Below, in pieces: positions 39,490-61,278 of a stretch of DNA of 64,000 bases (position 1 is the first letter of the stretch; every line of letters begins with the position of its first letter). A program made the position numbers and the translations under genes. The notes below the pieces were generated by a model. It was given only the letters and a program-made list of their open reading frames with translations. It ran no database searches and was not told the origin of the DNA. Source of the stretch: Hyphomicrobiales bacterium (GTDB lineage Bacteria > Pseudomonadota > Alphaproteobacteria > Rhizobiales > Aestuariivirgaceae); contig JANYHN010000070.1 of the NCBI GenBank assembly GCA_025359045.1, positions 62,001 through 126,000 on the forward strand, read 5' to 3'.

Positions 39490-39527
39490 GGCCCGTCCGC
39501 TCATGATTTGAGTGGCGCGGGCTTTTT
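39490..39527 (+). terminator. Rho-independent terminator after bioY
   Basis: A hairpin with a GCCCG..CTCA arm from 39491 and a TGAG..GCGGGC arm to 39522 is followed by five T. It also lies at the end of the convergent SorC gene. Confidence 0.8.
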
Positions 39528-40528
39528 CAATCCCCAACCTTCTTCAACAGGGCTAAAGCTGTTTCTTCATTGGTGATCAAAACATTGCAGTTGATCAGTT
39601 TGATTGCGCCATAAATGGCTTCGATTTTGTCCGCACCGCCAGCAGAGATTACGCGCAGTGGCACGTCGCGCAGTTGGTCGAGCGGTATAGACATAATGCG
39701 TTTGTTCACTGGGTGATCAACAAGTTTACCGTTGATATCAAAAAAATTATATAGCAAGTCACCCACAGCACCCGCTTGGATCAAAGCGAGGCGATCTGCT
39801 TCTGGCAACATTTCAAACCGAAACGCGGTTGACTTTGGTTCCATATTACCACAGCTCAGCATGGCGATATCAAGCTTCTCTGCGCGCTTGAAAACATCAC
39901 GCAGACCGCAGCGCTCAACAAGGGCTTCACGTGTGGCTGGTGAATCGACCACAGCGGGGGCTTGTAGCAAATAACAATCAGCGCCAACGGCCCGCGCAAA
40001 CTGCCAGGCAAACTCTGCCGGATTAAACTTTCGCGCTTGAACAATGCCACCGAGCAAGGAGATCACCTGTACATTGTTTAATTCGCGCGTGGTCAAAGTG
40101 GCGAGTGACTCATAGAGTGTTGCACCCCAGCCCACGCCGACTGACATTCCGTCTTTCAATGTATCAGACACAAACATGCCAGCCGCATTGCCTATGGATT
40201 TGGCAATGTTTGCTGAATTATTAGGTTCTGGAACGACAATTGCGTCCTGCAAATTGAACGCCTTTTTCAACGCGTCTTCAATCTCAATGCATTCTGCAAT
40301 ATCGCCTTCAATGCGGATTTTCACTTCGCGTTGTTTGATGGCCTCATTGATATTTCGCACAACAGTCACGCGGCCAATACCCAGCTTTTCGGCTATTTCG
40401 TTCTGCGTCAAGCCTTCAACATAATACATCCATGCAATGCGCATACGGTTGCGAGCTATACGGCCCGCACCACGGTCCACTGGGGTGACTGCAATTGACC
40501 TGATATGGCCGTCGTCATGCTTTGGCAT
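39527..40528 (-). CDS. SorC-family sugar-binding transcriptional regulator
   Basis: The protein is 333 residues. The N-terminal helix-turn-helix is about residues 35-60 ([22 protein letters not shown]), followed by the SorC C-terminal sugar-phosphate-binding domain ([44 protein letters not shown]). Members bind phosphorylated sugars or polyol phosphates; EryD of the Brucella erythritol operon is one. The start overlaps the end of dxs, and two ATGs (40534, 40528) are possible; GGAAAG fits the second. It is transcribed with dxs, an unusual pairing. Likely operators are the palindromes at 42534-42560 and 48481-48516. Confidence 0.9.
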
Positions 40529-42467
40529 ACACATTCTTTCCGTTGGCTGCCAATGCAGACATCACTGTGGTAACGATGCCGGCACGATCAAGACCGTTGC
40601 GTGCATACATCGTTTCAGGTTTGGCCTGATCTGTAAATTCATCTTTCAGTGTTAAGCACCGAATTTTCAAGCCACGGTCAAGCAAGCCAAGGTTTGCAAG
40701 AGCGTGCAAAACTTGGCCATCAAAGCCGCCCGTCGCACCTTCTTCAACAGTTACCAGCACCTCGTGTTCCAAGGCTAGTCGTTGCAGCAAAGCTAAATCT
40801 AAAGGCTTTGCAAATCGCGCATCAGCCACAGTTGTTGACAAGCCCGCCGCATCCAAATCTTGCGCCGCTAAAATACAATCAGCCAGACGTGTTCCAAAAG
40901 AAAGCAGCGCAATTTTACTTCCCTCTTTAACGATACGGCCTTTGCCAATTACCAAAATTTCTCCGCGCTCTGGCAGGTCAACCCCCACACCGTCACCGCG
41001 CGGAAAGCGAAATGAAATAGGCCCTTCGTCATAGGCCGCAGCCGTGCGCACCATATGCTTGAGTTCTGCTTCGTCCGATGCCGCCATCACCACAAAATTT
41101 GGCAGCGATGCCAAGAAGCCTATATCGAAGGCTCCACAATGGGTTGGGCCATCGGCGCCCACATAACCCGCACGGTCAATCGGAAAGCGCACGGGCAGTT
41201 TTTGAATGGCTACATCATGCACGATCTGGTCATAGGCGCGTTGCAGGAAGGTGGAATAGATTGCAACAAACGGCTTCATGCCTTCGGTGGCCATTCCTGC
41301 AGCAAATGTCACAGCGTGCTGTTCGGCAATGCCAACATCAAATACCCGTGTTGGAAAAATCTCACCAAAAAGATCAAGCCCTGTGCCAGTCGGCATAGCG
41401 GCAGTTATGCCCACTATGCGGTCGTCAAGCTGGGCTTCTTGAATAAGGCTCTGTGCAAAGACTTTCGTGTAAGCTGGTGCATTGGATGTGGCCTTGCTTT
41501 GGGTGCCTGTGATCACATCAAATTTATTCACGCCATGATATTTGTCAGCTGCCTTCTCAGCAGGCGCATAACCCTTACCCTTTTTGGTGACGACATGAAT
41601 GAGAATGGGTTCATTACCATGGTCACGCACATTGCTGAGTACGGGGATCAGATCATCAAAATTATGTCCGTCAATCGGGCCGATGTAATGAAACCCTAAC
41701 TCTTCAAACATAGTGCCACCGGTCACGTAGCCGCGCGCATGACCCACAGCACGGGTGATTGCACGGTCAGCCCGCTTACCCAAACGCGAGGATAGTTTTT
41801 TGCTGAGATCGCGGAAGTCATTATAAAATTTTCCCGATGCTAGACGCGCAAGATATGAACTGAGCGCACCAGACGGTGGAGCGATCGACATATCATTGTC
41901 GTTGAGGATGACGATCAACCGCGCATCCATTGCCCCTGCGTTGTTTAGCGCTTCAAACGCCATGCCAGCCGACATTGCGCCATCGCCAATCACTGAGATA
42001 ACGTTGTTGGATCTATTTTTCAGATCGCGCGCCACAGCCATACCAAGACCAGCTGAAATGGAAGTCGATGAATGCGCTGCACCAAACGGATCAAACTCGC
42101 TTTCGGCGCGTTTGGTAAATCCAGAAATTCCATTCTCTTGTCGAAGTGTTTTAAAGCGATCCCGTCTGCCAGTGAGTATTTTATGCGGATAGCTTTGATG
42201 TCCCACATCCCAAATCACACGGTCTTCGGGTGTGTTGAAGATATAATGCAAAGCAATTGTCAGTTCGACAACGCCAAGGCCAGCGCCCAAATGCCCACCG
42301 GTTTTGGAGACGGCGCTGATCATATCTTCGCGGAGTTCGGCGGCGAGCTGTGGCAGCTGGTTCACATGTAATTTTTTCAAGTTAATAGGAAAATCCGCCA
42401 TATCAAGCAGCGGCGTAGGGTTTGGAGTGTTCAAAATTCTGTTCCTCGCAGTCACGCCCAACTGCAT
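40515..42467 (-). CDS. dxs: 1-deoxy-D-xylulose-5-phosphate synthase
   Basis: The protein is 650 residues from the ATG at 42467. The frame stays open further upstream, but the Dxs match begins only here ([16 protein letters not shown]). It condenses pyruvate with glyceraldehyde 3-phosphate to DXP, with TPP. Marks are [35 protein letters not shown], the TPP motif [27 protein letters not shown], and [19 protein letters not shown] near residue 430. The transketolase C-terminal domain is complete. The context differs from the usual xseB-ispA neighbours: here a SorC regulator follows and a sugar transporter faces it. This may be a second, inducible copy or the only one. Confidence 0.92.
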
Positions 42468-42533
42468 TACACCGTCTGTTTTCTGATCGCCAAGAGAAAT
42501 TGAAAATTTGATAACGAAACATTTGCATTTCAA

Positions 42534-42560
42534 ATTGTTATTTAGTATGCTAATTAGAAT
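42534..42560. promoter_or_regulatory. candidate SorC operator between dxs and the ABC importer
   Basis: The segment has ATTGTTAT at 42534-42541 next to a near-palindrome (TTAG, 4 bases, CTAA). The same elements, ATAACAAT beside a TAGTA/TACTA palindrome, occur at 48481-48516. A shared pattern in both divergent promoters of the cluster suggests one regulator. The 326-base gap around it otherwise holds only the small frame at 42612. Confidence 0.35.
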
Positions 42561-42611
42561 ATACAAAAAAGCGCTGCCAATAAAATCATGCGGCCAATAA
42601 GGGAGGTTACA

Positions 42612-42683
42612 ATGGGTATTAACGGCAACGACCTTTTTCTGAAAATCGCCCTGATTTCGCGACGATCTATCCATTTATTCTGA
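42612..42683 (+). CDS. possible 23-residue leader peptide
   Basis: A short frame begins with ATG six bases after the strong ribosome site GGGAGG and ends in TGA: residues [20 protein letters not shown] and three more. It lies 110 bases before the binding-protein gene. The strong ribosome site makes translation likely; a regulatory leader, a small membrane peptide or a gene remnant are all possible. No known family is recognised. Confidence 0.3.
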
Positions 42684-42793
42684 TTTCTCGGTTGCTTCAC
42701 GCATGAGGTAACACCGAAAAAATGTGCCGTGCTCAAGGCCAAGCACACGCGCAACGCCAAATCAGGCCACAAAAATATTGAGGAGGAAATAGA

Positions 42794-44356
42794 ATGCTCT
42801 TGACCAATAAATTATCCCGCCGATCGCTTTTGAAAGCCACGGCTGCCACGGGGGCTTTTGCAGCCGTCGGTGGTGTGAACATGTTCAACATCAACAGCGC
42901 ATTTGCTGCGATGAAAGACCCCGCTGACGTTCTGAAAACCATCAATGTCGGCAAATATGTGAAGAAGGAATATCGCGAGCAATATAAGCTTGGTGATAAT
43001 GATGAACTTTGGGATTCAAAGAAAGACTGGATCCGTACCGTAGATTGGGAAGCTGTTCGTAAAGAACATGCGGGCAAAACAGTGCGCTTTGCCATCGGTG
43101 CTGCCGATAAGGAATCAGCTCAGGATGGCGTGGCGCCATTTGCAGAACTCTCAGGCATTAAGGTTGAACTCGTCCCAATTCCTGACGACTCAATGTATGA
43201 TAAGGTTGTCGCTGAATTCTTGTCAGGCACCGCCTCATTTGATGCCATTCAGTTCTTCTCACCTTGGCTTGGCGATTTTGGTGCGCAAGGCTTTGTAAAG
43301 CCATTGGATGAATATATCGCCAAGTGGAAACTTCCCTTTGATGATTTCTATGAAACCTATCAGTTAAATTATGGGCATTGGAGCGACAAGGGCATTCTGG
43401 GTATTCCATTCGATTGCGATATTCAACAAGTGCACGTTCGTCCATCGATCATGAAGAAAGTTCTGGGCGGCGAAGTCGACCGTGTGAAATCAATTGCCAC
43501 TTATGATGATATGATCCGCTTGGCACCTGAACTCAACAAAGTTGAAAAAGGTGTGAATGCTATCGGCATGATGTGCGGCCGTGGCTTCTGGGCAACCTAT
43601 ACGTGGCAACACATTGCGGCTCAATATGGCATGCAAATGTTTAACGATAAGTGGGAGCCAACAATCAATAGTGATGCAGGCATCAAAGGTCTCGAAACCA
43701 TTGTTGCTCTGTCAAAGAACGCTATTGAGGGTGTTGCAGCTGCTGACTGGCCAACCAATCGTGCCGCTTGGTTGGGCGGTCAAATCGCCTGCAATATTTC
43801 TTGGCAAGATTCGGGCACCCAAGCCACGCGCCCTGATCAATCGAAGATTGGTGATGACGTCATGACAATCTATGAACCACGCGTTGCTGGTGGCACTTAT
43901 GCGCCGCCAAATATTGCAGGTTCAACATCATGCGTCACAGCCACATCACCAGAGCCAGAAGCTGCATTCTTGATGCTGGCTTTCTTAACCTCGGCATCGA
44001 TTATGGCCATGAACGAAGCTAATGCGAATGGTGTAGCGCCTGGTTACAAATCAGTGCTTGCCAATGAAAAATTGCGTGCAGTATCACAGCCTGCAAAGGT
44101 TTGGTCTGAAGCTTTAGATTATGCATGGTGTGCACCACGTCTTCCACAAGGCTTCCAGATGGATCAGGAAATCGGTTTCCTTATTAATAAAGTTGTCGTG
44201 GGCGAATTGAAGCCAAAGGACGCGCTTGATCAAGCTGCCGTGAAAGTCAAAGAAATCATGACCAAGAATGGTTTCTACAAAGGCAAAGACCCAATGAACT
44301 TTGCAGCTGTTGAACCTGGCATGTGGATCGGCAAAGGTAAGAAGGCACCTTTCTGA
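42794..44356 (+). CDS. sugar ABC transporter, substrate-binding protein (Tat-exported)
   Basis: The 520-residue protein is an extracellular solute-binding protein of the family 1 (maltose/glycerol-3-phosphate) type. Its N-terminus has the twin-arginine signal LSRRSLLKATAATGAF. The pattern GKTVRFAIGAADKE, then FAELSGIKVELVPI, SFDAIQFFSPWLGDFG and the WPTNRAAWLGGQIACNISWQ segment form the two-lobe fold. Tat export means it folds before leaving the cytoplasm. Length (520) is larger than usual (about 420). GAGGAGGAAA is a very strong ribosome site. Substrate is unknown; a polyol or sugar is expected. Confidence 0.9.
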   Translation: MLLTNKLSRRSLLKATAATGAFAAVGGVNMFNINSAFAAMKDPADVLKTINVGKYVKKEYREQYKLGDNDELWDSKKDWIRTVDWEAVRKEHAGKTVRFAIGAADKESAQDGVAPFAELSGIKVELVPIPDDSMYDKVVAEFLSGTASFDAIQFFSPWLGDFGAQGFVKPLDEYIAKWKLPFDDFYETYQLNYGHWSDKGILGIPFDCDIQQVHVRPSIMKKVLGGEVDRVKSIATYDDMIRLAPELNKVEKGVNAIGMMCGRGFWATYTWQHIAAQYGMQMFNDKWEPTINSDAGIKGLETIVALSKNAIEGVAAADWPTNRAAWLGGQIACNISWQDSGTQATRPDQSKIGDDVMTIYEPRVAGGTYAPPNIAGSTSCVTATSPEPEAAFLMLAFLTSASIMAMNEANANGVAPGYKSVLANEKLRAVSQPAKVWSEALDYAWCAPRLPQGFQMDQEIGFLINKVVVGELKPKDALDQAAVKVKEIMTKNGFYKGKDPMNFAAVEPGMWIGKGKKAPF

Positions 44357-44369
44357 ATTTGATATTGAA

Positions 44370-44396
44370 CGGCAGGGGAAACTCTGCTGTTTTTTT
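44370..44396 (+). terminator. attenuating hairpin after the binding-protein gene
   Basis: CGGCAG at 44370-44375 pairs with CTGCTG at 44384-44389 (one G-U), and seven T follow. It should lower expression of the permease genes relative to the binding protein. Confidence 0.65.
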
Positions 44397-44416
44397 GACG
44401 TTTACGGACTAAATCA

Positions 44417-45313
44417 ATGACTGCTATTCAGCCCGCCATCATCCGCCGCCGCAGTCCATTCATGCGCAAGGCATTCCCGTATTTTCTACTCGCTCCAGCG
44501 ATGATCTATCTGCTGGGCATCACGCTTTATCCCGGTATTTATGCGCTCTATCGCAGCACGATGACGGGCAAGTTCAAGTTGGAATTTGTCGGTCTTGATA
44601 ATTACAGAGAACTCATTGTCGACAACGCATTTTGGGAAAGCCTTTACAATACGCTTGTCCTTGGCTCAATCACGCTCGTCATAGAATTCACGATTGCCAT
44701 GGCACTGGCTGCACTTGTCTACCGTGACCCATGGGTGAAAGCCTGGCGCATTATTTTTCTATTGCCAATGTTGTTCATGCCATCTGCCGTTTCGTTTTTG
44801 TGGAAGTTGATCTTTAACGATGGCCGCATTATCAGCGATTTGTTGACGAGGCTTGGCTCAACTTTCGGCAACATTGATTTTATGGGGTCTTCCGGCTTTG
44901 CGCGAAGTGTTCTCGTTGTCACCGATGTTTGGCAGTGGACTCCGTTTCTCTTTATTATTTTTGTGGCCGGCCTGCAGGGCATGGACAAGGAAGTTGAAGA
45001 AGCCGCACGCCTTGATGGCGCATCATGGAGTAGCATTTTCTTCAACATCTCGTTGCCCATGATCCGCCCGGTGATTGCCATCGGATTAGTGTTGCGTGGT
45101 ATTGATATTTTAACAATGTTCACGCCGGTGCATGTTATCACCCAGGGCTCTCCGGGTGGTGCTACTGAAACGCTCAGTTATTTTATTTATCGAACAGCGT
45201 TCAAAAGTTTTGAGCAGGGCTATGCCTCAGCTGCATCGGTTCTATTGTTGATCGCAACGATTGTGGTTTCACAGACGCTGGTGCGCCGCTTCTTCAAATC
45301 GGGAACTGAATAA
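44417..45313 (+). CDS. sugar ABC transporter permease (MalF type)
   Basis: The 298-residue permease has six hydrophobic helices and the EAA loop EVEEAARLDGASWSSIFFNISLPM near residue 190. The opening AFPYFLLAPAMIYLLGITLYPGIYALYRS is typical of MalF/UgpA-like sugar permeases. It forms a heterodimer with the next gene, with which it shares a TAATG overlap. Confidence 0.92.
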   Translation: MTAIQPAIIRRRSPFMRKAFPYFLLAPAMIYLLGITLYPGIYALYRSTMTGKFKLEFVGLDNYRELIVDNAFWESLYNTLVLGSITLVIEFTIAMALAALVYRDPWVKAWRIIFLLPMLFMPSAVSFLWKLIFNDGRIISDLLTRLGSTFGNIDFMGSSGFARSVLVVTDVWQWTPFLFIIFVAGLQGMDKEVEEAARLDGASWSSIFFNISLPMIRPVIAIGLVLRGIDILTMFTPVHVITQGSPGGATETLSYFIYRTAFKSFEQGYASAASVLLLIATIVVSQTLVRRFFKSGTE

Positions 45314-46143
45314 TGAAGAACAAAGTTACGTCAGGAACCTGGGTTGCTAAATTTATTTTATCGTTGTGGGCGGCGGCTTGCCTTTTGCCAATTATATTCT
45401 TCGCTTCAATTGCTTTGCGCCCGCGAAATGAAATCATTGCGCCTACGCCCATTTATTTTCCAACACTTACAACTGAAACATGGAGCAAGATATGGGATGA
45501 GTGGCCCATCGGCACTTATTTTGCTAATTCTGTGATGGCGGTTTTTGGCAGTGTTGTGATCTGCTTGTTGTTGGGCGTGCCTGCGGCTTATGCTCTGGCG
45601 CGCTATAGGTTCAAAGGCCGCGAAGATATTGGGTTTTATATTCTTTCAACAAAAATGATGGCGCCTGCTGCCGTGGCAATTCCGATGTTTGTGTTGTTCG
45701 GACGCTTGCATATTCTTGATACAGTTTGGGCACTTATGTTGATCTATGCTGCAGCAAATCTTTCCATCGTGGTGTGGATTATCCGTTCCTACATGGTCGA
45801 CATTCCTCACGAGATTGAAGACGCAGCCCGCACTGATGGTGCATCAGATTTGCGCATCATGTGGTCGATCATCATCCCGATGTGTCTGCCGGGCATCATT
45901 ACCGCCGCTGTGATTGCTGCAATTTTTGCAATGAACGAATATTTGTTCACGCTGATCATCGCTTCGAAGAATGCTTATCCATTGTCAGTGGCATTGGCGA
46001 ATTTTAGCGGCGGTAGTGATGGCATTATTTATAATGCGATTGCACTGGTCTCGTTCTTGGCGTTCTTTCCGGCGCTATTGCTCGTGATATCCATTCAAAA
46101 TCACTTGTCTCGCGGGCTGACGATGGGGGCGGTGAAGGGTTAG
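45313..46143 (+). CDS. carbohydrate ABC transporter permease (MalG type)
   Basis: The 276-residue permease has six helices and the EAA loop EIEDAARTDGASDLRIMW near residue 175. It is the second subunit of the sugar importer. Its 3' end overlaps the convergent PfkB kinase gene by four bases. The matching ATPase lies at 48616-49674 rather than in this run. Confidence 0.92.
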   Translation: MKNKVTSGTWVAKFILSLWAAACLLPIIFFASIALRPRNEIIAPTPIYFPTLTTETWSKIWDEWPIGTYFANSVMAVFGSVVICLLLGVPAAYALARYRFKGREDIGFYILSTKMMAPAAVAIPMFVLFGRLHILDTVWALMLIYAAANLSIVVWIIRSYMVDIPHEIEDAARTDGASDLRIMWSIIIPMCLPGIITAAVIAAIFAMNEYLFTLIIASKNAYPLSVALANFSGGSDGIIYNAIALVSFLAFFPALLLVISIQNHLSRGLTMGAVKG

Positions 46144-47087
46144 CGCTTCACTTTCGTTGTTTTCATAAAATTCAGCGTGTGTTCGAAACTTTCAACACCT
46201 GCCTGAGAACCAAGCCCCGTTGCATTCAGCGCTGATGTTGCTTGCGCAAAACGCACGTTGGTTTCGGGGTCAAAATCTTTCACCAAGCCAACAGCAAAGC
46301 CAGCATTAAATGCATCACCACAGCCGCACGTACACTTCACTCTAATATCATAGGCTGGTACTTTAAATGAAATGCCGTCGCGGTCGTGATAATATGCGCC
46401 GTCGCCACCAAGGGTCAGCACGCAGGCTTTTACACCCATATCCAAAAAGAATTTGGCTGTGTCGCCATAATCGCTGCGGCCACATAATGCCTGGGCTTCT
46501 TCAATTGATGGCATGAAATAATCAGTATACGGAAGAACCGAAGCAATGGCGGGCAGGTCTTTGGGCGAGCCAGCGAAGACATCGAGGGTTGTGATCGCAC
46601 CACCAGCTTTGGCTGCTTTCATCACAACAGTGTTCTGGCCACTATCCATGGCGCTCATCAAGCCGACGCCACCGATGTGAAACACTTTCGCATCAATCAC
46701 GCGTGGGATCATGGCATCATCAACGAAAAAATCTTTGGTTGCACCCAACATATGCAGGGCGGGGCGCGAACCATCAGCGCGTGTTGTAACGATTGATGAT
46801 GATGTGCGCCATTCAGGTTTATGCTGCACACCCCAAGTGTCAACTCCGAAGTGGGCCAAGCGTTGCAACACCCAATCGCCCATTAAATCTTCACCAACAC
46901 CGGCCACCGCTAGCGTTTTTAAACCCATTTTTGCGGCTGCAATGGCCGCTGTGCCACCCGCGCCAGAAACCGCCAATGTTAGATCATCAATAAAAACCGT
47001 GCCGCCACCGGGCGGAATTTCTGTGAATGGCCAGCCCAAGCAATCATAGGTGTAGAACCCCATGGATGTGTAATCATAGCGTGGCAT
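46140..47087 (-). CDS. PfkB-family carbohydrate kinase
   Basis: The 315-residue kinase has the PfkB signatures: the N-terminal GGGTVFIDDLTLAVSGAGGTAAIAAAKMG (binding-site Gly run near residue 42) and the C-terminal CGCGDAFNAGFAVGL, with the catalytic Asp. The usual DTTGAGDAF is changed to CTCGCGDAF, with Cys in two places. It should phosphorylate the sugar or polyol brought in by the ABC transporter. The DRL-like gene ends at the base just before its start, so the two are a unit. Substrate is not known. Confidence 0.88.
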   Translation of the reverse strand: MPRYDYTSMGFYTYDCLGWPFTEIPPGGGTVFIDDLTLAVSGAGGTAAIAAAKMGLKTLAVAGVGEDLMGDWVLQRLAHFGVDTWGVQHKPEWRTSSSIVTTRADGSRPALHMLGATKDFFVDDAMIPRVIDAKVFHIGGVGLMSAMDSGQNTVVMKAAKAGGAITTLDVFAGSPKDLPAIASVLPYTDYFMPSIEEAQALCGRSDYGDTAKFFLDMGVKACVLTLGGDGAYYHDRDGISFKVPAYDIRVKCTCGCGDAFNAGFAVGLVKDFDPETNVRFAQATSALNATGLGSQAGVESFEHTLNFMKTTKVKR

Positions 47088-48440
47088 TTAGGCGGCTGCG
47101 ACTTTCAACATATCATCCTGTCGCTTTCTCAGCGTGAAAATTTTAGCAGTCGTATCAACTGCGATATTTTCAGTGGTCAGCAATTCGCCTTTCTTAATTG
47201 CCTTGGTCACTTTGCCTTCTTCAATCAAACCGCACGGAACAGCTTTGGCAGCAACTGCTTCGGCAACACTCATAATCCACGCGCGATAGGTATATTCGCC
47301 AATCGCATCGAGCCTTTCGCCTGGCACAAGATCTTTTTTTGCCACTGCACAGACTTCGGATGTTGGCACATCGCGCGGCTGCATGTCTGGAATTCCGTAG
47401 AGCACGGCGCGCGCACATGACAGCGGCACTTCAAGCGATGTCAAATGATAGGGCCTGAAGAAACGGTAATATGGCCCGGCACCCAATTTCAAATCATGCA
47501 TGCGTTCACGCACGCGCGGGTGTGACATTTCCGCAATGACAAAAACGCCCGGGGCCACACCTTTGCCAATTGAGAAATCAACAACTCCTTTGCGCGAAAG
47601 AATGCCGCCATCAGCTATGGGGCAAAGAACATGTTCAAGTTCGGTCATTGAGCAATTGGGGCCATGCATACCCGCCTTGTCGGGGACCAATCCGGTGGCG
47701 TTGGATATCGCCGCCATTTCAACCATGGTCTTTGAACCATCAACAAATTCTACGAGCATGCGCACATTCATGTTGCGGCGTTTTGCTTCTTCAGCATATT
47801 CATCTGGTGTAGCATCAATCTTCAACGGATTGTTCTTGCCCTTGCCTGCAGCCACGATGGGATAGCCCATGCCGGTTACGAAATTCACAAGTTCCATGCA
47901 GCTTGATGGTTCATCGCCCGCGCCCAAAGTGTAAACCACACCAAGCCTGGACGCCTCGCGCTTTAAATAAGCCCCGATGCAAACATCACCTTCCACATTC
48001 ATCATCACCATGTGCTTGCCATGTTCCATGGAGGTCAAAGCAATTTCGGCACCAGCGGCAGGTCTGCCCGTAGCGTCAATCACCACGTCAATTTGGGGGT
48101 CAGTGCAGATCAGTTGTGAATCTTCTGTGATTGCTGTTTTGCCTGTGCTGATACAGCTTGAAAGAGCCGCAGCCGTATTGACCAGCTGATAGTCACCTTC
48201 GTCGCGTCCGGAGATCAAAACAGCGCGTTTTGCGTTTTCAATGCGGCGATCAGCAATTGCAGCAACGGTAATGCCAGTCATTTGCTCGCACTGGGTTACA
48301 ATGTCGGTGCCCATTTCGCCAGAACCAATCAGACCTACGCGAATCGGCTTGCCGGTTTCGGCAAAACGCCGCGCTAAATCAGCGGCAAGACCGTGGGCGG
48401 GGGCTTGGGAGTTAATAGGCAGGTAGGATTTCTTCGACAT
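47088..48440 (-). CDS. NAD(P)-dependent oxidoreductase with SAF domain (COG4091, DXR-like DRL family)
   Basis: The 450-residue protein has a Rossmann domain with VGLIGSGEMGTDIV (about residue 36), IDVVIDATG and LGAGDEPSSCMELV, a long middle part rich in conserved charged residues (AGKGKNNPLKIDATPDEY, KRRNMNVRMLVEFVDGSKTM) and a C-terminal SAF-like domain (LVPGERLDAIGEY, IKKGELLTTENI). The family includes the Brucella enzyme DRL, which replaces Dxr and turns DXP into methylerythritol 4-phosphate, but also proteins with other roles. The dxs gene five kilobases away supports the DRL role. This is family membership plus context, not proof. Confidence 0.72.
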   Translation of the reverse strand: MSKKSYLPINSQAPAHGLAADLARRFAETGKPIRVGLIGSGEMGTDIVTQCEQMTGITVAAIADRRIENAKRAVLISGRDEGDYQLVNTAAALSSCISTGKTAITEDSQLICTDPQIDVVIDATGRPAAGAEIALTSMEHGKHMVMMNVEGDVCIGAYLKREASRLGVVYTLGAGDEPSSCMELVNFVTGMGYPIVAAGKGKNNPLKIDATPDEYAEEAKRRNMNVRMLVEFVDGSKTMVEMAAISNATGLVPDKAGMHGPNCSMTELEHVLCPIADGGILSRKGVVDFSIGKGVAPGVFVIAEMSHPRVRERMHDLKLGAGPYYRFFRPYHLTSLEVPLSCARAVLYGIPDMQPRDVPTSEVCAVAKKDLVPGERLDAIGEYTYRAWIMSVAEAVAAKAVPCGLIEEGKVTKAIKKGELLTTENIAVDTTAKIFTLRKRQDDMLKVAAA

Positions 48441-48480
48441 TTGCGCTTCCTGTTCGGAAAAGTTAAAAGATACATTTGAT

Positions 48481-48516
48481 CTTCTGATATAACAATAGTA
48501 CTATAATTGACAGAAG
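48481..48516. promoter_or_regulatory. 36-base imperfect palindrome, candidate SorC operator
   Basis: CTTCTG at 48481-48486 mirrors CAGAAG at 48511-48516, and the core ATAGTACTAT at 48495-48504 is a perfect palindrome. It lies in the divergent promoter of the DRL-like and ATPase genes and contains ATAACAAT, also found in reverse before the binding-protein gene. Confidence 0.45.
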
Positions 48517-48615
48517 CCCAACTTGCAAGAAATTGCTTGCGGCTTTGAACCTAAAACCACCAACTTTACAAGAGTGGTTGTTGGGCTAATCTGGTGAGGA
48601 AGGACGAAAATCTAA

Positions 48616-49674
48616 ATGGCTTCAATCAGTCTGAAAAAAGTGTCTAAAGCTTGGGGTGCTGTGGTGGGTGTGGATGCCATTGATCTTGAGATTAGAGACA
48701 AAGAATTCATGGTATTTCTTGGGCCTTCAGGCTGCGGCAAAACCACAACAATGCGGATGATTGCGGGGCTCGAAATGCCAACGGGTGGCGAAATTGATAT
48801 CGCTGGACAGCGCATGACTGATGTGGACGCCCGCGACCGAGATGTGGCCATGGTATTTCAGAGCTATGCACTTTACCCAAATATGTCGATTTATGAGAAT
48901 ATTCGCTTTCCATTGCGCATGCGCGGCGTTCCCAAAGCTGACCAGGAAGGTTTGGTGCGAAAAGCGGCTGAGATGGTGGAGCTGGGTGATTTGTTAGAGC
49001 GCAAACCCAAAGCGCTTTCGGGCGGTCAACGCCAGCGCGCTGCCTTGGCCCGCGCTATTGTGCGCCAGCCGCAAGTGTTTTTGATGGATGAGCCGTTATC
49101 GAACTTGGATGCAAAATTGCGCTTGTCGATGCGCGCTCAACTCAAACACATCCAAAAGCGATTGGAGACAACAACTGTCTATGTGACTCATGATCAGATC
49201 GAAGCTATGACTTTGGCTGATCGTATTGCGATTATGAATAAGGGTAAAATCCAACAGCTTGGAACGCCTGATGAGATTTACAACAATCCGGCCAATATGT
49301 TTGTAGCTGGATTTATTGGTTCAACGCCGATGAATTTGATTAAGGGGTCGATTTCCAAGGGCGTTTTCACTGGGCCGGGTGTGAGCGTATCTGATTTGAA
49401 ATATGCTGATCATTCAAAGGTGGTTTTTGGGATCAGGCCAGAGGATGTGGCGATTGTTGCCAAATCAAAAGCACATCTGACTGCGCCGCTTTATTCATTG
49501 GAGCCTACAGGTGATCAAACATTGGTTGCCGTCAAAAATGGGGAACAGTTGATTGTGGCGCGTGCCGCAAGGGATTACCGTGCGGCTGTTGATATGCCTT
49601 TGTCACTACAGTTTGATTTGGTTCGCGCGTTTATTTTTGACGGTGAGACAGGTGCGCGGGTGGGATTACGTTAA
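48616..49674 (+). CDS. sugar ABC transporter ATP-binding protein (UgpC/MsmK type)
   Basis: The 352-residue ATPase has Walker A GPSGCGKTT, the Q-loop VFQSYALYPNMS, signature LSGGQRQR, Walker B FLMDEPLSNLDAKLR, the switch His in YVTHDQIEAMTLADR and a C-terminal TOBE-like domain (RPEDVAIV). It should power the importer at 42794-46143, although it is split from it by the kinase and oxidoreductase genes. GGAAGGA precedes the start. Its end overlaps the next convergent gene by four bases. Confidence 0.92.
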   Translation: MASISLKKVSKAWGAVVGVDAIDLEIRDKEFMVFLGPSGCGKTTTMRMIAGLEMPTGGEIDIAGQRMTDVDARDRDVAMVFQSYALYPNMSIYENIRFPLRMRGVPKADQEGLVRKAAEMVELGDLLERKPKALSGGQRQRAALARAIVRQPQVFLMDEPLSNLDAKLRLSMRAQLKHIQKRLETTTVYVTHDQIEAMTLADRIAIMNKGKIQQLGTPDEIYNNPANMFVAGFIGSTPMNLIKGSISKGVFTGPGVSVSDLKYADHSKVVFGIRPEDVAIVAKSKAHLTAPLYSLEPTGDQTLVAVKNGEQLIVARAARDYRAAVDMPLSLQFDLVRAFIFDGETGARVGLR

Positions 49675-50288
49675 CTTTTTAAAAGCTCGCGTTTTTGCTT
49701 TAAAGCCTTCCTCATCCACGGCACATCGGGTGCATCCCAGTTTGGCTCTTGACCACAAACGAGGTCAAAGAAAGCGATTGCTGAAGCTGGACTTTCCATC
49801 GTGTTTTCTTTGAAGGTGTCCCAGAATGCCGGATCGTCCGAAGGGCCGCTGGTTTCCGGTTCGGTCTCGCCCATTTCGCGCAAGATTGCTCCGGCGACGG
49901 ATAAGCAAAAACTTGTATAGGCATAACCTTCAGGCCAGCGGGTTAGCAATTGATCTGTTGAAGCGATCGCAACAGCGCTCTCACTTGGCTTGCGTTGCTG
50001 GGTTTTCAATGGGGATGCCGCAACCAATTCTTTCAACATGAGCCCGGCAGCAAAAATAACGAAGTCGTGGCGATTGGTATCAGCCAGATATTTCGTTTGA
50101 TCAAAGCGCTGACGCCAATTTGAAAAGGCGGTGGCCAATGCGGCGTGATCCACCACAGTTGAAAGCGACGAATTTTTGAACAGCAAATCCAGATTGGTTT
50201 CGAACATCTGCAACACCGTGCGAAAGCGTCTGGCCGCGTGGGCCAAATCATCGATTTTCGAAACATCGGATGTTAACGGTGTTTTCAT
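49671..50288 (-). CDS. protein of unknown function
   Basis: The 205-residue protein is mostly helical by composition (HAARRFRTVLQMFETNLDLLF, SNWRQRFDQTKYL) with a HDFVIFAAGLMLKELV segment near the middle. No signal peptide, membrane helix or known motif is seen. It is transcribed away from the gene at 50341, another protein of unknown function, with their start regions almost touching. The two may form a conserved pair, which only comparison can show. Confidence 0.6.
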   Translation of the reverse strand: MKTPLTSDVSKIDDLAHAARRFRTVLQMFETNLDLLFKNSSLSTVVDHAALATAFSNWRQRFDQTKYLADTNRHDFVIFAAGLMLKELVAASPLKTQQRKPSESAVAIASTDQLLTRWPEGYAYTSFCLSVAGAILREMGETEPETSGPSDDPAFWDTFKENTMESPASAIAFFDLVCGQEPNWDAPDVPWMRKALKQKRELLKS

Positions 50289-50340
50289 GCGACCATATCA
50301 TCGCTTGACGAAGCGGCTGTGGCAAGGCTCAATTGGCCGC

Positions 50341-51117
50341 ATGAGCATTGCATTTAAAACTGCTGAACGGCTGTCCGATCATGCTTGGTGTATGGCGGCG
50401 GGGTTTCGCGATAGTTTACGCACCGCACAATTTTATGTGCGTGATATGCGCAATGCTGATGGGCAGGGCACGTCGTTTCCGAGGCAGTCGACTTTTCTGT
50501 CGCGCATGGTTGCCGGACTGGCCCGTGTGGTTGATGATGTGATGACGAAAGGTGGCAATCTTTCGATCAGATTGTTGCTGCCCAATTGGCGCAAATTACC
50601 TTCGCCTTTTACCGCTGGTTTTATGGATGAAGTGCAGACCGCCATCAGCCATAATAAGTTGGTCGAGAATCCGATTTTCAACGCCTACTTTTTTCGGAGT
50701 TGCCAAAACATCCTTTCACGCTGGGCTGAGCCGCCTTATCTGGTGCTCGAACACCGTATCGATGCCGCACGGCGCGATTTAGCTTTGGCAAAAGCGCCAG
50801 CCGATAAGCTTGAGTTTCTAAGTCAGACTCTTTTGGCATTGGTTGAAGCAGCGCCGATTGCACGGCATGGACCGCTGCGTGACAATGGCAAGCTTCTTGG
50901 CGACGGCGATCCTAATGTTGCAGTGTGCGCCACGGCCTGCTTGGCGTTGCTATTGGCTGAAGAGGGCGGTGCAATCAGTGGAATTGGCGATGATGAATTT
51001 TTCGCCATTGTCGGCGCGTTGATGTTGCCGCGCTTAAATTCTATGCAACAAGCAGTGAGTGAACGGGATTCGAAGAAGTTAGCGAGAGAACTTTCAGCCA
51101 TCCGTGACCAATACTAG
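50341..51117 (+). CDS. protein of unknown function
   Basis: The protein is 258 residues from the ATG at 50341. An earlier in-frame ATG (50287) shares bases with the start codon of the divergent gene at 49671-50288, and neither has a clear ribosome site. It is helical and basic (AERLSDHAWCMAAGFRDSLRTA, LARVVDDVMTKG) without membrane segments. I recognise no family. The C-terminus has LLLAEEGGAISGIGDDEF and a charged end. Context: unknown partner gene on the left and the E1/E2 operon on the right. Confidence 0.6.
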   Translation: MSIAFKTAERLSDHAWCMAAGFRDSLRTAQFYVRDMRNADGQGTSFPRQSTFLSRMVAGLARVVDDVMTKGGNLSIRLLLPNWRKLPSPFTAGFMDEVQTAISHNKLVENPIFNAYFFRSCQNILSRWAEPPYLVLEHRIDAARRDLALAKAPADKLEFLSQTLLALVEAAPIARHGPLRDNGKLLGDGDPNVAVCATACLALLLAEEGGAISGIGDDEFFAIVGALMLPRLNSMQQAVSERDSKKLARELSAIRDQY

Positions 51118-51384
51118 ACGTATTGTCTTGGCGTAGCATTTAAATCGTTTTTAAGAGCCGCCGCAGGCTTTTGTAGGTCTGGCTGCTATGGGGGTAGCTT
51201 ACACCCATGAATCGCGCGTGCGGGGCATTTAAGCGGAATAGAATTGATTTCTATTTATAGGTTTATGTTCATTTTGTTTTAACTTGGGGTTGAGTAAGGG
51301 TAGGTTTTGTCTGCTCTTTACGCAAGTCTTATTGTGTTACATATTGACTTTTTAAACCGCAAAAGTATAAATAAGCGTCTCAGG

Positions 51385-51436
51385 GCGTGGCCTACTCCTC
51401 CCCGGTTTTCCCTAACCGTGGCCACGCTCGTTTTTA
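51385..51436 (+). promoter_or_regulatory. terminator-like hairpin in the leader of the E1/E2 operon
   Basis: GCGTGGCC (51385-51392) pairs perfectly with GGCCACGC (51420-51427). An inner hairpin CGGTT/AACCG lies in the loop, and a T-run follows at 51431-51435. It ends 25 bases before the first gene. The gap 51118-51460 (343 bases) holds no gene I can support; a small inverted repeat (ATGGG/CCCAT) lies near 51188-51208. Confidence 0.5.
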
Positions 51437-51460
51437 TCATTTTGAATCGAAACAGGCCTC

Positions 51461-52486
51461 ATGAATTCCTCACCCAAAAAAGCCACCATCGGTAAAAATC
51501 AACGCCCATTTTATGCCAACAATTCTGCCGCTGCGTTAAAGGAAGCGTTGCGGAAAATGCATTTGGTGAGGATGTTTGAGGAAATGGCTGAGGACTCCTA
51601 CATTCGTGGCCTCACCCATGGCACTATGCATTTATCAATCGGCCAAGAAGCTTCGGCGGTTGGCATCACGATGGGTCTGCGTAAAACTGATTACATCACC
51701 TCGACCCACCGTGGCCACGGCCACTGCATTGGCAAAGGGGCAGAAGCCAAATACATGTTCGCTGAATTTTTTGGTAAAGAAGAAGGCTATTGCAAGGGGC
51801 GCGGTGGCTCGATGCACATCGCTGATCCTGAAACTGGCAATCTTGGCGCAAATGGAATCGTGGGCGGTGGCTTGCCGTTGGCCACCGGGGCCGCACTTGC
51901 CATCAAACAACAAAAGCGTGACGATGTTGCGGTGTGTTTTTTTGGTGATGGCGCATCCAATGAAGGTGCATTTCATGAATCACTGAATCTCGCGGCGGTT
52001 TGGAAATTACCTGTGGTCTATGTTTGCGAAAACAACGGATATGGCATGTCAGTCTCGACTGATCGTTCAATGTCTGTGCCTAATGTGGCTGACCGAGCGC
52101 CAGCCTATAACATGCCGGGCGTAATTGTAGATGGCAACAACATAGCCGATGTCGCTGAAGCCATGGCGGTGGCCACCGAACGCGCACGCCGCGGCGAAGG
52201 CCCCACACTTATCGAGTGCAAAACCTATCGCACACGCGGCCACTCACGCAGCGACCGTAATAAATATCGCACGAAGGAGGAAATTGAAGAGTGGAAGGCG
52301 CGTGACCCAATTCCTCTTTTTGAAAAAGAACTCCTGGATATGGGCATTTTTGTGCAAGCCGATATTGACGCCGTGTTGGCCAATGCGAAAGCAGAAATTG
52401 AAGATGGTTTTAATTTTGCACGCGGCGGAACCGACCCAGTGCCTGAGGATGTGACACGTGATGTCTATGCAAGGGAGATTGCATAA
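51461..52486 (+). CDS. TPP-dependent dehydrogenase E1 component, alpha subunit (acetoin/pyruvate type)
   Basis: The 341-residue protein has the TPP motif [19 protein letters not shown] with ENNGYG, and [28 protein letters not shown] and [12 protein letters not shown] resemble acetoin dehydrogenase E1 alpha (AcoA) more than the PdhA of alphaproteobacteria, though both share them. With E1 beta it decarboxylates acetoin or a 2-oxoacid and passes the acyl group to the lipoyl E2. The stop overlaps the next start (TAATG). Confidence 0.85.
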
Positions 52487-53472
52487 TGCGTGAACTGTCT
52501 TTTGCGCAGGCTTTGCACGAAGCTTTGGATATTGCCATGGAAGCTGACGAGCGGGTTTTCATCATGGGCGAAGATATTGGCGTTTATGGCGGTGCTTTTG
52601 GGGTGACTGGTGATCTGGTTCATAAATTTGGCGAAGACCGTGTTATGGATACGCCGATTGCCGAATTGGGCACCGCAGGTGCTGCCGTGGGTGCCGCCGT
52701 TGCAGGCTCGCGCCCTATTCTGGAATTTCAGTTTTCGGATTTTTCGGGTTTGGCCATGGAACAGATTGTCAACCAAGCCGCCAAGATGCGTTATATGCTG
52801 GGCGGAAAAGTAAACGTACCAGTGGTATTCCGCATGCCCTGCGGTTCAGGCACGGGCGCTGCTGCGCAACATTCGCAATCGCTGGAAGCATGGTTTGCCC
52901 ATGTGCCTGGCCTCAAGGTGATTGAGCCTTCAACACCCGCTGATGCCAAGGGCATGTTGTTGGCCGCCATAGAAGACCCGGATCCGGTTTTGATTTTTGA
53001 ACACAAACTTCTCTATAAAATTAAAGGGGATGTTCCTGAAGGTCATTATTTGACCCCGATCGGCAAGGCGCATGTTGCACGCGAGGGCCGCGATGTTACT
53101 GTGGTTGCTGCTGCCATCATGGTGCATAAGGCTTTAGAGGCCGCCGAGATTTTGAAGGCTGAAGGCATTGAGGTAGAAGTGGTTGACCTTCGCTCTATCC
53201 GTCCGATTGATACAGGCACAATCATTGCCAGTGTTAAAAAGACCACGCGGCTGGCCTGCATTTATGAAGGTGTTAAAACCCTTGGCATCGGTGCTGAGAT
53301 CAGCGCATTAGTCGCCGAAAGTGAGGCTTTTGATTATCTTGATGCGCCAATCCTGCGCTTGGGTGGTGCCGAAAGCCCAATCCCTTACAGCCCGATTTTG
53401 GAAAAGGCCGCTGTGCCACAAGTTGAAGGTATTGTTGAGGCATTGCGCAATTTGGTGAAGGGCCGCATTTAA
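52486..53472 (+). CDS. 2-oxoacid / acetoin dehydrogenase E1 component, beta subunit
   Basis: The 328-residue protein has [20 protein letters not shown] near residue 25, [28 protein letters not shown] near 125 and the C-terminal transketolase domain ([11 protein letters not shown]). It has no N-terminal lipoyl domain. The principal PdhB of alphaproteobacteria usually has one, which argues that this is a second, catabolic complex such as acetoin dehydrogenase. It pairs with the E1 alpha gene before it. Confidence 0.87.
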
Positions 53473-54711
53473 ATGGCCGTCGAAGTTATTCTCCCAAAAG
53501 TCGATATGGATATGGCCACTGGCATTATTTCCAAGTGGCATGTGAAAAACGGTGACACCGTTAAAAAGGGCCAAGTGCTTTTTGAAATGGAAACCGATAA
53601 ATCTGCAATCGAGATTGATGCACCAGCAGACGGTGTGATCAATAATATCGAAGCGCAATCGGGTGCTGCCACGCCCATTGGTGCAAAGGTAGCGATGATT
53701 TATGCGGTGGGTGAATCTGTGCAAGCAACGAAAGCTGCTGCCCCAGTCGTTGAATCTGCTCAAGTTTTAAAATCGGTTATGCTCGAAAAAATAGCAACCA
53801 TTGATCAAAGCTCTTCGTCAGGGACTCGGGCAACACCTTTGGCACGGCGCTTGGCGCGGCAAAAGAAAGTGGATTTGGCTTCGGTCAAAGGCTCTGGCCC
53901 ACGTGGTCGGATTATCGCTCAGGATGTTGAAAGTTATAAATCCGTTGCAGCAGTAGTTGCAGCCCCAGCGCCCGACGCATCGGCCACCATGGCCATGTAT
54001 CAGGCTGGATATTATGATGTGAAACCCCTCGATGGCATGCGCCGCATTATTGCGCAGCGACTCACACACTCTAAACAAACTGTTCCGCATTTTTATCTTT
54101 CTGCTAAATGCGATCTTACACAGCTGATATTAGTCCGTGAACGGATTAATATGGCGGCACCGCTTGACGAGTCCAAGAAGCCGAAATGGAAGCTTTCAAT
54201 TAATGACTATGTGATCAAGGCTTTGGCGCTTGCCTTGCAACGTGTGCCAGCTGCGAATGTGACTTACACGGATGCAGGCATTCTGCAACACCATGTTAGT
54301 GATGTGGGTGTCGCCGTTTCCGTTGAGGGCGGTTTGTTTACGCCAATTGTTCGCGGAGCTGAAAATAAATCATTATCGCAAATTTCAATCGAAATGAAAG
54401 ATTTGGCTGCGCGTGCTCGGGCGCGCAAATTGCAACCATCTGATTATTCAGGCGGCACGACTGCAGTGTCCAATCTTGGCATGTATGGCATTGAGCAATT
54501 CACCGCCATCATTAATCCACCACAAGCCACAATTCTGGCAGTGGGGACGGGGATTGATCAGTTTGTGCCTTTAAACAAGCAGCCGGTTCTGAAAACATTA
54601 ATGGAATGCACGTTGTCTTGCGATCACCGCGCAGTCGACGGGGCAGTGGGCGCGGAATTGTTGCAGGCTTTTAGGGCCTTTATTGAAGAGCCCGCATTGA
54701 TGCTGGCTTAA
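53473..54711 (+). CDS. dihydrolipoamide acyltransferase E2 (acetoin/pyruvate type)
   Basis: The 412-residue protein has one lipoyl domain (about 1-80, lipoylated Lys in ETDKSAIEI), a linker, a peripheral subunit-binding domain (about 117-155, ATPLARRLARQKKVDL) and the catalytic domain from about 180 to the end, with the active His and Asp in CDHRAVDG. It transfers the acyl group to CoA. No E3 gene is near, so lipoamide dehydrogenase from another locus must be shared. Confidence 0.9.
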   Translation: MAVEVILPKVDMDMATGIISKWHVKNGDTVKKGQVLFEMETDKSAIEIDAPADGVINNIEAQSGAATPIGAKVAMIYAVGESVQATKAAAPVVESAQVLKSVMLEKIATIDQSSSSGTRATPLARRLARQKKVDLASVKGSGPRGRIIAQDVESYKSVAAVVAAPAPDASATMAMYQAGYYDVKPLDGMRRIIAQRLTHSKQTVPHFYLSAKCDLTQLILVRERINMAAPLDESKKPKWKLSINDYVIKALALALQRVPAANVTYTDAGILQHHVSDVGVAVSVEGGLFTPIVRGAENKSLSQISIEMKDLAARARARKLQPSDYSGGTTAVSNLGMYGIEQFTAIINPPQATILAVGTGIDQFVPLNKQPVLKTLMECTLSCDHRAVDGAVGAELLQAFRAFIEEPALMLA

Positions 54712-56835: not shown

Positions 56836-56841
56836 CGCTGG

Positions 56842-58725: not shown

Positions 58726-58728
58726 ATT

Positions 58729-59967
58729 TTACCAGACTCCGCGCGTGTCGATAATGATTTTTTCTTTCAACATCTCGCGATCAAATTTCAGGAATGCCTT
58801 GTGATCGACGAGTAATACAACAATATCTGAATCACGAATAGCATTGTGCAATGACGTTAGCGTGGCATCTGAACCTTGCAAAGCCTTTGGCAATTCTTTG
58901 ATATGAGGTTCGACGATTTTGATCTCACCGAGTTTTTGGTGCACAATTGCTTCAACGATTTCAAGGGCAGGGCTTTCGCGGAAATCATCGATATCGGCCT
59001 TGTAGGAAAGTCCTAAGCAGGCAATGCGTGGTGATTTTAATTTTTCTGCGGCATGCTTTACTTTTTCGACGATGTAATGAGGCTTACGGTTGTTGATTTC
59101 GCGCGCTGACTTTATGAGTTTGGCGTTTGCAGGATCTGCCGCAACGATAAACCATGGATCAACAGCGATGCAGTGGCCGCCCACGCCCGGGCCAGGCCTC
59201 AAGATATTTACACGCGGATGGAGGTTGGCAAGACGGATCAGCTCCCATACGTCGATTTTAAGCGAGTCACAGATATAGCTAAGTTCATTAGCGTATGCGA
59301 TGTTTACATCGCGAAATGAATTCTCAGAAAGTTTGCAAAGTTCTGCGGTGCGCGCGTTAGTGATGTGGCATTCCGCTTTACTGATCAATTGATAAAGGTT
59401 AAGCGCAGCATTGGCGCACTCTGCGGTGATGCCACCAATAATGCGGGCGTTATGAACCACTTCATATAGAATTTTACCGGGCAACACGCGCTCAGGGCAA
59501 TGCGCCACATGAACGTCGGGAATGCCGATGTTGGTGTGCGGGAAGTTTAGGTCAGGGCGCTCTTCTGCGAGGATTTCGCTCAGTCGTTCTGTTGTGCCAA
59601 CGGGTGAAGTTGATTCCAGCACCACTAAATTGCCACGTTCCAGTACTGGCGCAATCGAACGGGCGGCTTTTTCAATGTAAGAAATATCTGGGATGAAACC
59701 ATCTTTGAATGGTGTCGGCACTGCAAGGATAAAGGCATCTGCCTTTTCTGGCTTCGTTGATGCTTTGAATTTGCCTGCGGAAATTACCCGGCGCAAAATC
59801 ACATCTAATTCTGGTTCCGTGATATGTGGATTGCCGCTGTTAATCTCTTTGACGGCCCGCTCATTCACGTCGACGCCATGAACTGCGATTCCTTGATCAG
59901 CAAATACTGTGGCCGTGGGCAAACCAATGTAACCTAAACCGACGACACAAATTTTGTTGAACTTCAT
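58729..59967 (-). CDS. wecC: UDP-N-acetyl-D-mannosamine dehydrogenase
   Basis: The 412-residue enzyme oxidises UDP-ManNAc to UDP-ManNAcA with two NAD. Marks are VVGLGYIGLPTATVFADQG at the N-terminus, ESTSPVGTTERL, the conserved FRDVNIAYANE segment and the catalytic Cys in GPGVGGHCIAVDPWF. FVVA-type binding follows. The start overlaps the wecB stop (TAATG). It makes the acidic sugar for the polymer. Confidence 0.93.
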   Translation of the reverse strand: MKFNKICVVGLGYIGLPTATVFADQGIAVHGVDVNERAVKEINSGNPHITEPELDVILRRVISAGKFKASTKPEKADAFILAVPTPFKDGFIPDISYIEKAARSIAPVLERGNLVVLESTSPVGTTERLSEILAEERPDLNFPHTNIGIPDVHVAHCPERVLPGKILYEVVHNARIIGGITAECANAALNLYQLISKAECHITNARTAELCKLSENSFRDVNIAYANELSYICDSLKIDVWELIRLANLHPRVNILRPGPGVGGHCIAVDPWFIVAADPANAKLIKSAREINNRKPHYIVEKVKHAAEKLKSPRIACLGLSYKADIDDFRESPALEIVEAIVHQKLGEIKIVEPHIKELPKALQGSDATLTSLHNAIRDSDIVVLLVDHKAFLKFDREMLKEKIIIDTRGVW

Positions 59968-61094: not shown

Positions 61095-61278
61095 TGGAAC
61101 AACCTCTTTATCTAGCCTTAATCACAGGATATCTGTTGCCCCCAACCAGATGCATTCAACTAGTTCATTGCAGACATATATTGCAATTGTTTAATGGTCT
61201 TCGGACTGACTTTTTTGAAATTGACTTAATGCATCTCACTAAGTTAAAAGTTTAACAATTCGCAAGCTTGGAGAAAAT

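Follow-up and report, generated by a model that had tools for sequence, protein, structure and literature searches.

A SorC-associated gene cluster of an Aestuariivirgaceae bacterium, with DXR-II, dxs and a dehydrogenase complex, probably serves the uptake and use of a methylerythritol-like sugar alcohol

The 64-kb stretch of Hyphomicrobiales DNA analysed here (the window, which lies within contig C59 of a 3.18 Mb assembly, G000, stated to be 93% complete) carries at positions 39527-54711 a cluster of genes for a sugar-sensing regulator, an ATP-binding cassette (ABC) importer, a kinase, two predicted enzymes of isoprenoid synthesis and a dehydrogenase complex. The regulator gene (sorC; 39527-40534, minus strand) specifies a SorC/DeoR-family protein with an N-terminal helix-turn-helix (HTH) and a C-terminal PF04198 domain (212 bits, besides HTH-type matches), whose closest solved structures are DeoR, LsrR and SorC. 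Its start lies within the end of dxs, the gene for 1-deoxyxylulose 5-phosphate (DXP) synthase (40515-42467, minus strand; TIGR00204 806 bits, cut-off 466), the overlap being 20 bp, and an overlap of the same kind, of 14 bp, is present in the sister genome G020. The start of dxs is more likely the ATG at 42467 (651 amino acids) than position 42674 chosen by the open reading frame (ORF) caller, which is probably too early, as a predicted operator occupies 42513-42552. The plus strand carries the genes of a CUT1-type importer, namely the periplasmic binding protein (42794-44356; PF01547 86 bits), with a possible Tat signal (TAT_signal 20.9 bits, under the cut-off of 22.7), permease A (44417-45313; PF00528), permease B (45313-46143; PF00528) and a UgpC/MalK-type ATPase (48616-49674; NF008653 426 bits, slightly under the cut-off of 432), and these enclose, on the minus strand, a PfkB-family kinase gene (46140-47087; PF00294 123 bits), here proposed to encode a methylerythritol kinase, and the DRL or DXR-II gene (47088-48440; PF21135 DRL_cat 228 bits, cut-off 27).

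Up to this point the genes, their coordinates and the overlap of sorC and dxs are as described in an earlier, sequence-only reading of the window, which ended the cluster at 49674. That limit was too narrow, as four further genes also belong to it. The first (49671-50288, minus strand) encodes a conserved accessory protein of 205 amino acids without a Pfam match, homologues of which occur in cluster versions with an ABC importer and in versions with a phosphotransferase system (PTS), among them L180, L094, L095, L096, L101 and L124; a confident model of this protein (predicted local distance difference test score, pLDDT, 85) gave no PDB fold match with E below 1. The other three form a row on the plus strand encoding E1alpha (51461-52486; PF00676 296 bits) and E1beta (52486-53472; PF02779/PF02780) of a thiamine-diphosphate dehydrogenase complex and its E2 acyltransferase (53473-54711; PF00198 248 bits, PF00364 and PF02817), and this row, with the lipoyl, E3-binding and catalytic domains of E2, identifies an acyl-CoA-forming complex that resembles PDH and acetoin dehydrogenase, the second of its kind in the genome. 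The presumed housekeeping PDH is a separate set on contig C42, with an E1alpha 38% identical to that of the cluster. A loss of E1/E2 from the window with replacement by dxs had been considered, and was rejected on their presence at 51461-54711 (PDH stands for pyruvate dehydrogenase throughout). An additional ORF of 313 codons (50176-51117, plus strand), partly antisense to 49671-50288 and without a Pfam match, has a counterpart of equal length at the matching place in the sister locus L054 (4294-5235), and may be a real cluster gene.

2-C-methylerythritol 4-phosphate (MEP) is the entry metabolite of isoprenoid synthesis, and DXR-II has MEP and DXP as its pair of substrates. DRL was assigned by the Pfam DRL_cat profile and by a tree, and its only PDB matches were 3upy and 3upl (E about 1e-177), which we take to be the same Brucella abortus protein. 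The window DRL (query 16-427) is identical to 3upy, identified as the Brucella DXR-II in PMC3847144, in 261 of 412 aligned columns (63%). Ten residues are named there as important or diagnostic for DXR-II (Brucella numbering), and nine of these (Lys191, Lys193, Thr229, His250, Arg320, Gly121, Glu174, Phe178 and Tyr322) are kept in the window DRL, the tenth, Val351, being a threonine. A quick tree was built with 130 rows, namely 128 loci, the window gene and 3upy; it was rooted on two distant homologues, has some long branches and was prepared without two loci that have an internal stop and without the DLO1 and DLO2 reference sequences. It placed 3upy as sister to a 57-row group, 49 of them E1-linked (Shimodaira-Hasegawa-like approximate likelihood ratio test, SH-aLRT, 98 for the 58 rows), while the window gene grouped with those of G015, G020, G021, G027 and G036 (support 99). 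On the grounds of phylogeny, identity and these nine residues the enzyme, previously called DRL-like, falls within DXR-II, and its sequence argues that it is a true member. It resembles Brucella DXR-II in family, residues and tree position. The Brucella protein is described in PMC3847144 as a biosynthetic enzyme, whereas the window DRL is part of a proposed regulon together with genes for sugar uptake and for E1/E2.

No match to the classical dxr (PF02670) was found anywhere in the assembly, which contains one DRL match, ispG, ispF and one full dxs (PF13292 search), the other match (E 7e-5) coinciding with the PDH E1alpha of C42; hydroxymethylglutaryl-CoA (HMG-CoA) reductase was searched for in the assembly and not found. 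The combination that the sequence-only reading had named as speaking against it, an oxidoreductase outside the DRL clade alongside an ordinary dxr and a second dxs, is therefore not what this assembly holds. The sister genome G020, stated to be 100% complete, has one cluster-type E1alpha, one close pfkB, one DRL, one full dxs and no dxr. A second E1beta-E2-pfkB row in the order usual among relatives, with a PfkB 88% identical to that of the window, is present on the 3.5-kb contig C10 (G000:C10:1-3466, L178), and represents either a truncated second cluster or a contaminant. Among the 37 genomes of the genus (presumed to be Aestuariivirga) none was found to have dxr, as compared to 91 of the full set of 150 relatives, so that a DRL should act as reductoisomerase throughout the genus.

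The surroundings of DRL were compared in 145 neighbourhoods (60 from relatives, five from plasmids and 80 at named loci, these last being the top 80 among 573 confirmed), the 60 from relatives representing 60 of 117 DRL matches outside the window, mainly those without an insertion in the domain, with L091 and L092 as distant homologues. Removal of 15 duplicates left 130 non-redundant neighbourhoods, which were read by tblastn with the cluster genes. E1alpha (at least 60% identity within 14 kb of DRL) was present in 73 of the 130; in all of these but L054, the window's sister, it is the next gene after DRL and on its strand (72 of 73), and a complete DRL-E1alpha-E1beta-E2 row was observed in 58 loci. 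PfkB accompanied 22 of the 73 E1 loci and a sorbitol/Gut-type PTS 26, but never both together, as compared to 7.8 loci expected if the two were independent (hypergeometric 6e-6, which is no true probability as the loci are related). PTS loci without E1 were absent, and there were six PfkB loci without E1. The ABC importer and kinase thus look interchangeable with a polyol PTS, which would make a phosphorylated polyol their common product. Examples of the two versions are S. meliloti Rm41 and Rhizobium N324, with DRL-E1alpha-E1beta-E2-lpdA beside sorC, an ABC importer and a kinase, and R. rhododendri and Aminobacter, where the DRL-E1/E2 operon lies near glucitol-type PTS genes; in several rhizobia the DRL operon is on plasmids, the collection searched holding only plasmids.

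DRL also occurs in other settings. Phyllobacterium sp. 628 carries it with a different ABC importer and without E1, and in three Phyllobacterium loci (L097, L143 and L157) it adjoins a ribose-type ABC importer and an aldose epimerase gene, again without E1. A second DRL clade (L067, L070 and L078-L081) lies beside another sugar ABC importer, whose permeases are 29-34% and whose ATPase is 48-49% identical to those of the cluster, possibly a second DRL-linked uptake system. A dxs gene was near DRL in only three of the 130 neighbourhoods, plus the window, so that the earlier observation of MEP steps 1 and 2 in one cluster holds for this small clade and not for the cluster generally. The cluster is not an assembly artefact, as it recurs in many genomes and dxs lies between sorC and the binding-protein gene in two further species (L054 and L189).

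The operator came to light only through comparison between species; within the window, no 16-base word (at most three mismatches) common to the dxs/binding protein, DRL/ATPase and E1alpha upstream regions was found. Of 21 aligned loci, 20 have a conserved 40-bp element at the divergent DRL/ATPase promoter, the window being among them, and a matrix trained on 17 other genomes was run over both strands of the window. The three cluster promoter regions, which make up 1.4% of the window, ranked top: predicted operator 3 upstream of E1alpha (51333-51372, minus strand; 27.2 bits), operator 1 between dxs-sorC and the genes of the binding protein and permeases (42513-42552, plus strand; 11.4 bits) and operator 2 between DRL-pfkB and the ATPase gene (48466-48505, plus strand; 10.0 bits), followed by a fourth match of 6.8 and a fifth of -2.1 bits. 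The pattern KAWACWTTTR-N17-WWGTA, drawn from the three window sites and the promoters of relatives, gave 45 matches in 28 of 43 genomes as compared to nine for the reversed control; in the window's own genome it matched the three cluster sites and nothing else (control one). All 30 inspected loci are cluster promoters, the remaining 15 matches having been judged by coordinate only. A second matrix, built from 28 sites of ABC-type promoters of the family and applied at a threshold of at least 15 bits, found sites in 17 of 26 PTS clusters, in 0 of 22 other E1 loci outside the family, in none of two groups without E1, of 27 and 24 loci (thus 0 of 73 across the three groups lacking PTS and PfkB), and in one of 130 shuffled loci; these groups exclude 21 loci of the family that have E1 or PfkB, most of which had served for training. 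A single type of regulator thus seems to control both the PTS and the ABC version of the cluster, and the inducer is therefore probably the same.

The region 39527-54711 is, in our judgement, probably one SorC-controlled regulon by which the cell takes up and uses a branched sugar alcohol of five carbons, most likely 2-C-methyl-D-erythritol or a derivative of it. The substrate, the product of the kinase, the direction of DRL, the E1/E2 reaction and the response of the regulator we infer as follows. Methylerythritol would be taken up by the ABC importer (binding protein, two permeases and ATPase) and phosphorylated to MEP by the PfkB kinase, DRL would act in the oxidative direction and convert MEP to DXP, and E1alpha, E1beta and E2, with a shared E3, would split DXP, which like acetoin is an acyloin, into acetyl-CoA and glyceraldehyde 3-phosphate (GAP). 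Apart from dxs and the accessory gene at 49671-50288, all kinds of enzyme encoded in the cluster have a place in this chain. DXP is, like acetoin, an alpha-hydroxy methyl ketone, and acetoin-type E1/E2/E3 complexes cleave such compounds to acetyl-CoA and an aldehyde. According to PMC3424233, 1-deoxyxylulose is formed by PDH from pyruvate and glyceraldehyde, so that 1-deoxyketoses would be within E1 chemistry, and methylerythritol and its glucosides are noted in PMC11192765 to accumulate in plants. The same DRL, running forwards with the dxs of the regulon, would provide a route from pyruvate and GAP to MEP for isoprenoids, and the two should indeed feed isoprenoid synthesis, since no dxr and no other full dxs were found in the assembly. 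Deoxyxylulose as sole substrate is less likely, as DRL would be unneeded for its degradation and the alternative uptake is by a polyol-type PTS. The earlier proposal, by which the importer brings in methylerythritol or deoxyxylulose, the kinase makes MEP or DXP and DRL interconverts them, fits the survey, with the partner systems pointing to methylerythritol; its underlying observation is confirmed and its interpretation supported in part, the catabolic exit through E1alpha, E1beta and E2 having been missed.

Several points weigh against a methylerythritol regulon of this kind. The closest solved relatives of the E1 proteins are ordinary PDH E1. The window PfkB is far from solved kinases, scoring under the cut-off in all 19 NCBIfam sugar-kinase families listed (top 106.6 versus 299.65 bits), and the binding protein is likewise far from any characterised protein, with a predicted structure that is unusable (mean pLDDT 47). 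Neither PfkB nor PTS was present within 14 kb in 25 of the 73 E1 loci, of which 15 are less than 15 kb long and 10 are not explained by short contigs, and E1alpha itself was absent within 14 kb in 57 of the 130 DRL neighbourhoods. The ABC-trained matrix found no site of at least 15 bits in nine of 26 PTS clusters, and found one in only one of 10 ABC-PfkB clusters outside the family. The backward running of DRL or DXR is assumed from general background. Finally, with an assembly 93% complete and a second E1beta-E2-pfkB row on C10, further DRL or dxs genes may be missing from it, and the only copy is to be read as the only copy found.

The history of dxs bears on its place in the regulon. A tree of 29 rows groups the window dxs with those of G020, G015, G007, G019, G027, G033 and G036, together with that of G090, a genome from a different family within the order (100/100), and apart from the native dxs of the family. 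A tree of ispG and ispDF (with fewer than half of the columns filled for G007 and G022) unites these eight genomes and eight dxs-less ones in a single 16-genome clade (100/99) with no native dxs. The branching of the acquired dxs does not conflict with that of the species, with G007 in the outermost position although that fork is supported by 86/63 only, and the window dxs is 72% identical to that of G007. The gene lies between sorC and the binding-protein gene in the window genome, in G020 (L054) and in G007, three genomes from either side of the root of this clade of 16. The simplest account of these trees would be one xenologous replacement of dxs into the regulon at the base of the clade, followed by moves out and losses; dxs is a late arrival in the cluster, acquired horizontally. 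It is conceivable, and in our view improbable, that the place of the transferred dxs in the sorC operon is neutral and means nothing for its regulation; related dxs genes do occupy other places in G015, G027, G036, G019 and G033, with no operator-like site in the fetched stretches (3.2-19.9 kb), but the order sorC-dxs-binding protein, common to the window genome, G020 and G007, seems to have persisted through a long divergence. As a separate observation, nine genomes (G001, G005, G010, G017, G018, G025, G028, G030 and G035) have a variant dxs whose match skips about 40 N-terminal profile positions (about 194-232), and in eight of the nine a DRL of the second clade is present too, with 53-55% identity to that of the window.

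A strong dxs match was not found in 14 of the 37 genus genomes (G003, G006, G008, G009, G011, G012, G016, G021, G022, G024, G029, G031, G032 and G034), where about 2.5 absences were expected from stated incompleteness, nor in G040 and G041 of the family; G031 retains a dxs remnant with a stop. The 14 keep ispG (14/14) and mostly ispF (12/14), and HMG-CoA reductase was not found in them. The cluster E1alpha (at least 66% identity, one partial match counted) was present in 13 of the 14 as compared to 13 of the other 23 genus genomes. The Fisher p for this association was 0.027 for all 37 genomes, 0.096 for the 29 at least 90% complete and 0.32 for the 20 at least 95% complete, and a tree-based sign test of E1 against dxs loss was not significant (median p 0.125, range 0.016-0.375), so the link between E1 presence and dxs absence is suggestive only. 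In dxs-less genomes E1 is not in every case a neighbour of DRL, contrary to an idea considered at first, as it is about 14 kb away in G006 and G032 and on another contig in G003. G012 (L180, G012:C71; 99% complete) has a Gut-type PTS, HAD and SorC genes, with only fragments of DRL and E2, no full dxs and no dxr match, and is possibly a methylerythritol auxotroph or the product of an assembly deletion. We tentatively entertain, as a possibility rather than an expectation, that the catabolic regulon took over the entrance to isoprenoid synthesis in Aestuariivirga: dxr would have gone genus-wide, and in dxs-less lineages E1 would make DXP from pyruvate and GAP, or reversibly cleave and make it, and DRL would convert it to MEP, imported methylerythritol being an additional or sole source.

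A rival reading is salvage in place of catabolism, whereby the regulon would import methylerythritol (or 1-deoxyxylulose) for isoprenoids, E1 would make DXP or only dispose of excess, and dxs would have joined since the cell can obtain one metabolite either by uptake or by synthesis. In its favour, the sole full DXS and the sole DXR found both lie within the regulon, the 14 genomes with neither full dxs nor a dxr match (about 2.5 absences being expected) keep ispG and mostly ispF, and G012 retains PTS and SorC with mere remnants of DRL and E2. We nevertheless regard salvage as unlikely, as E1-E2 with lipoyl and E3-binding domains has the layout of an oxidative acyl-CoA-forming complex, imported methylerythritol would be usable for isoprenoids without DRL, and the operon resides on plasmids in several rhizobia, as catabolic operons often do. 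That a different branched or deoxy sugar alcohol is degraded, with DRL and E1 changed in specificity and dxs a chance neighbour, takes its appeal from the distance of PfkB and the binding protein from known proteins and is very improbable given that DRL retains its substrate-site and dimer residues, groups with the Brucella enzyme and should be the housekeeping DXR, no other having been found, and that a predicted regulon operator lies upstream of a dxs found at the same place in three species.

Downstream of the cluster, at 54922-63854, lie genes that from their translations alone resemble those for polysaccharide synthesis and export (asparagine-synthase-like, UDP-sugar dehydrogenase-like, UDP-GlcNAc epimerase-like, polymerase- and flippase-like).

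The proposed regulon shares features with several known systems. In acetoin dehydrogenase systems E1alpha, E1beta, E2 and E3 cleave an acyloin to acetyl-CoA and an aldehyde; the window has E1alpha, E1beta and E2, and S. meliloti Rm41 and Rhizobium N324 E3 too, whereas the acyloin proposed here is DXP derived from MEP and the cluster E1 is nearest to PDH among solved structures. Erythritol and threitol catabolic operons of Rhizobiales likewise combine a SorC-type regulator, a polyol importer and a kinase in one regulon, and the presumed substrate is a tetritol-like polyol; the window cluster differs in its use of PfkB, DRL and E1/E2, and no erythritol-kinase or erythritol-phosphate-dehydrogenase match was found among the cluster genes scanned. 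Methylerythritol itself is generally regarded as a by-product of the MEP pathway. According to PMC3424233, E. coli survives without dxs through aceE mutations and not with wild-type aceE, which makes a PDH-type E1 a source of DXP without DXS, although those are laboratory mutations and here natural genomes without full dxs carry a special E1. A literature search that covered few subscription journals returned no bacterial growth on methylerythritol and no DRL-E1-E2 operon, and the words isopren-, MEP and erythritol do not occur in the Aestuariivirga genome paper PMC8555084.

If the methylerythritol regulon is as proposed, it would constitute a widespread bacterial route from methylerythritol through DXP to central metabolites, that is, the entrance of the MEP pathway in reverse. 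Some bacteria have both DXR-II and the classical DXR, according to PMC3847144, and the regulon would offer a function for DXR-II in such bacteria and a hint at the origin of the Brucella-type DXR-II. The genomes that have ispG and ispF and neither a full dxs nor dxr make the natural replaceability of DXP synthase testable, which bears on the robustness of the MEP pathway as an antibiotic target. Should the more tentative takeover of the isoprenoid entrance hold true, these would be natural bacteria with an MEP pathway lacking both DXS and the classical DXR, some of them possibly methylerythritol auxotrophs.

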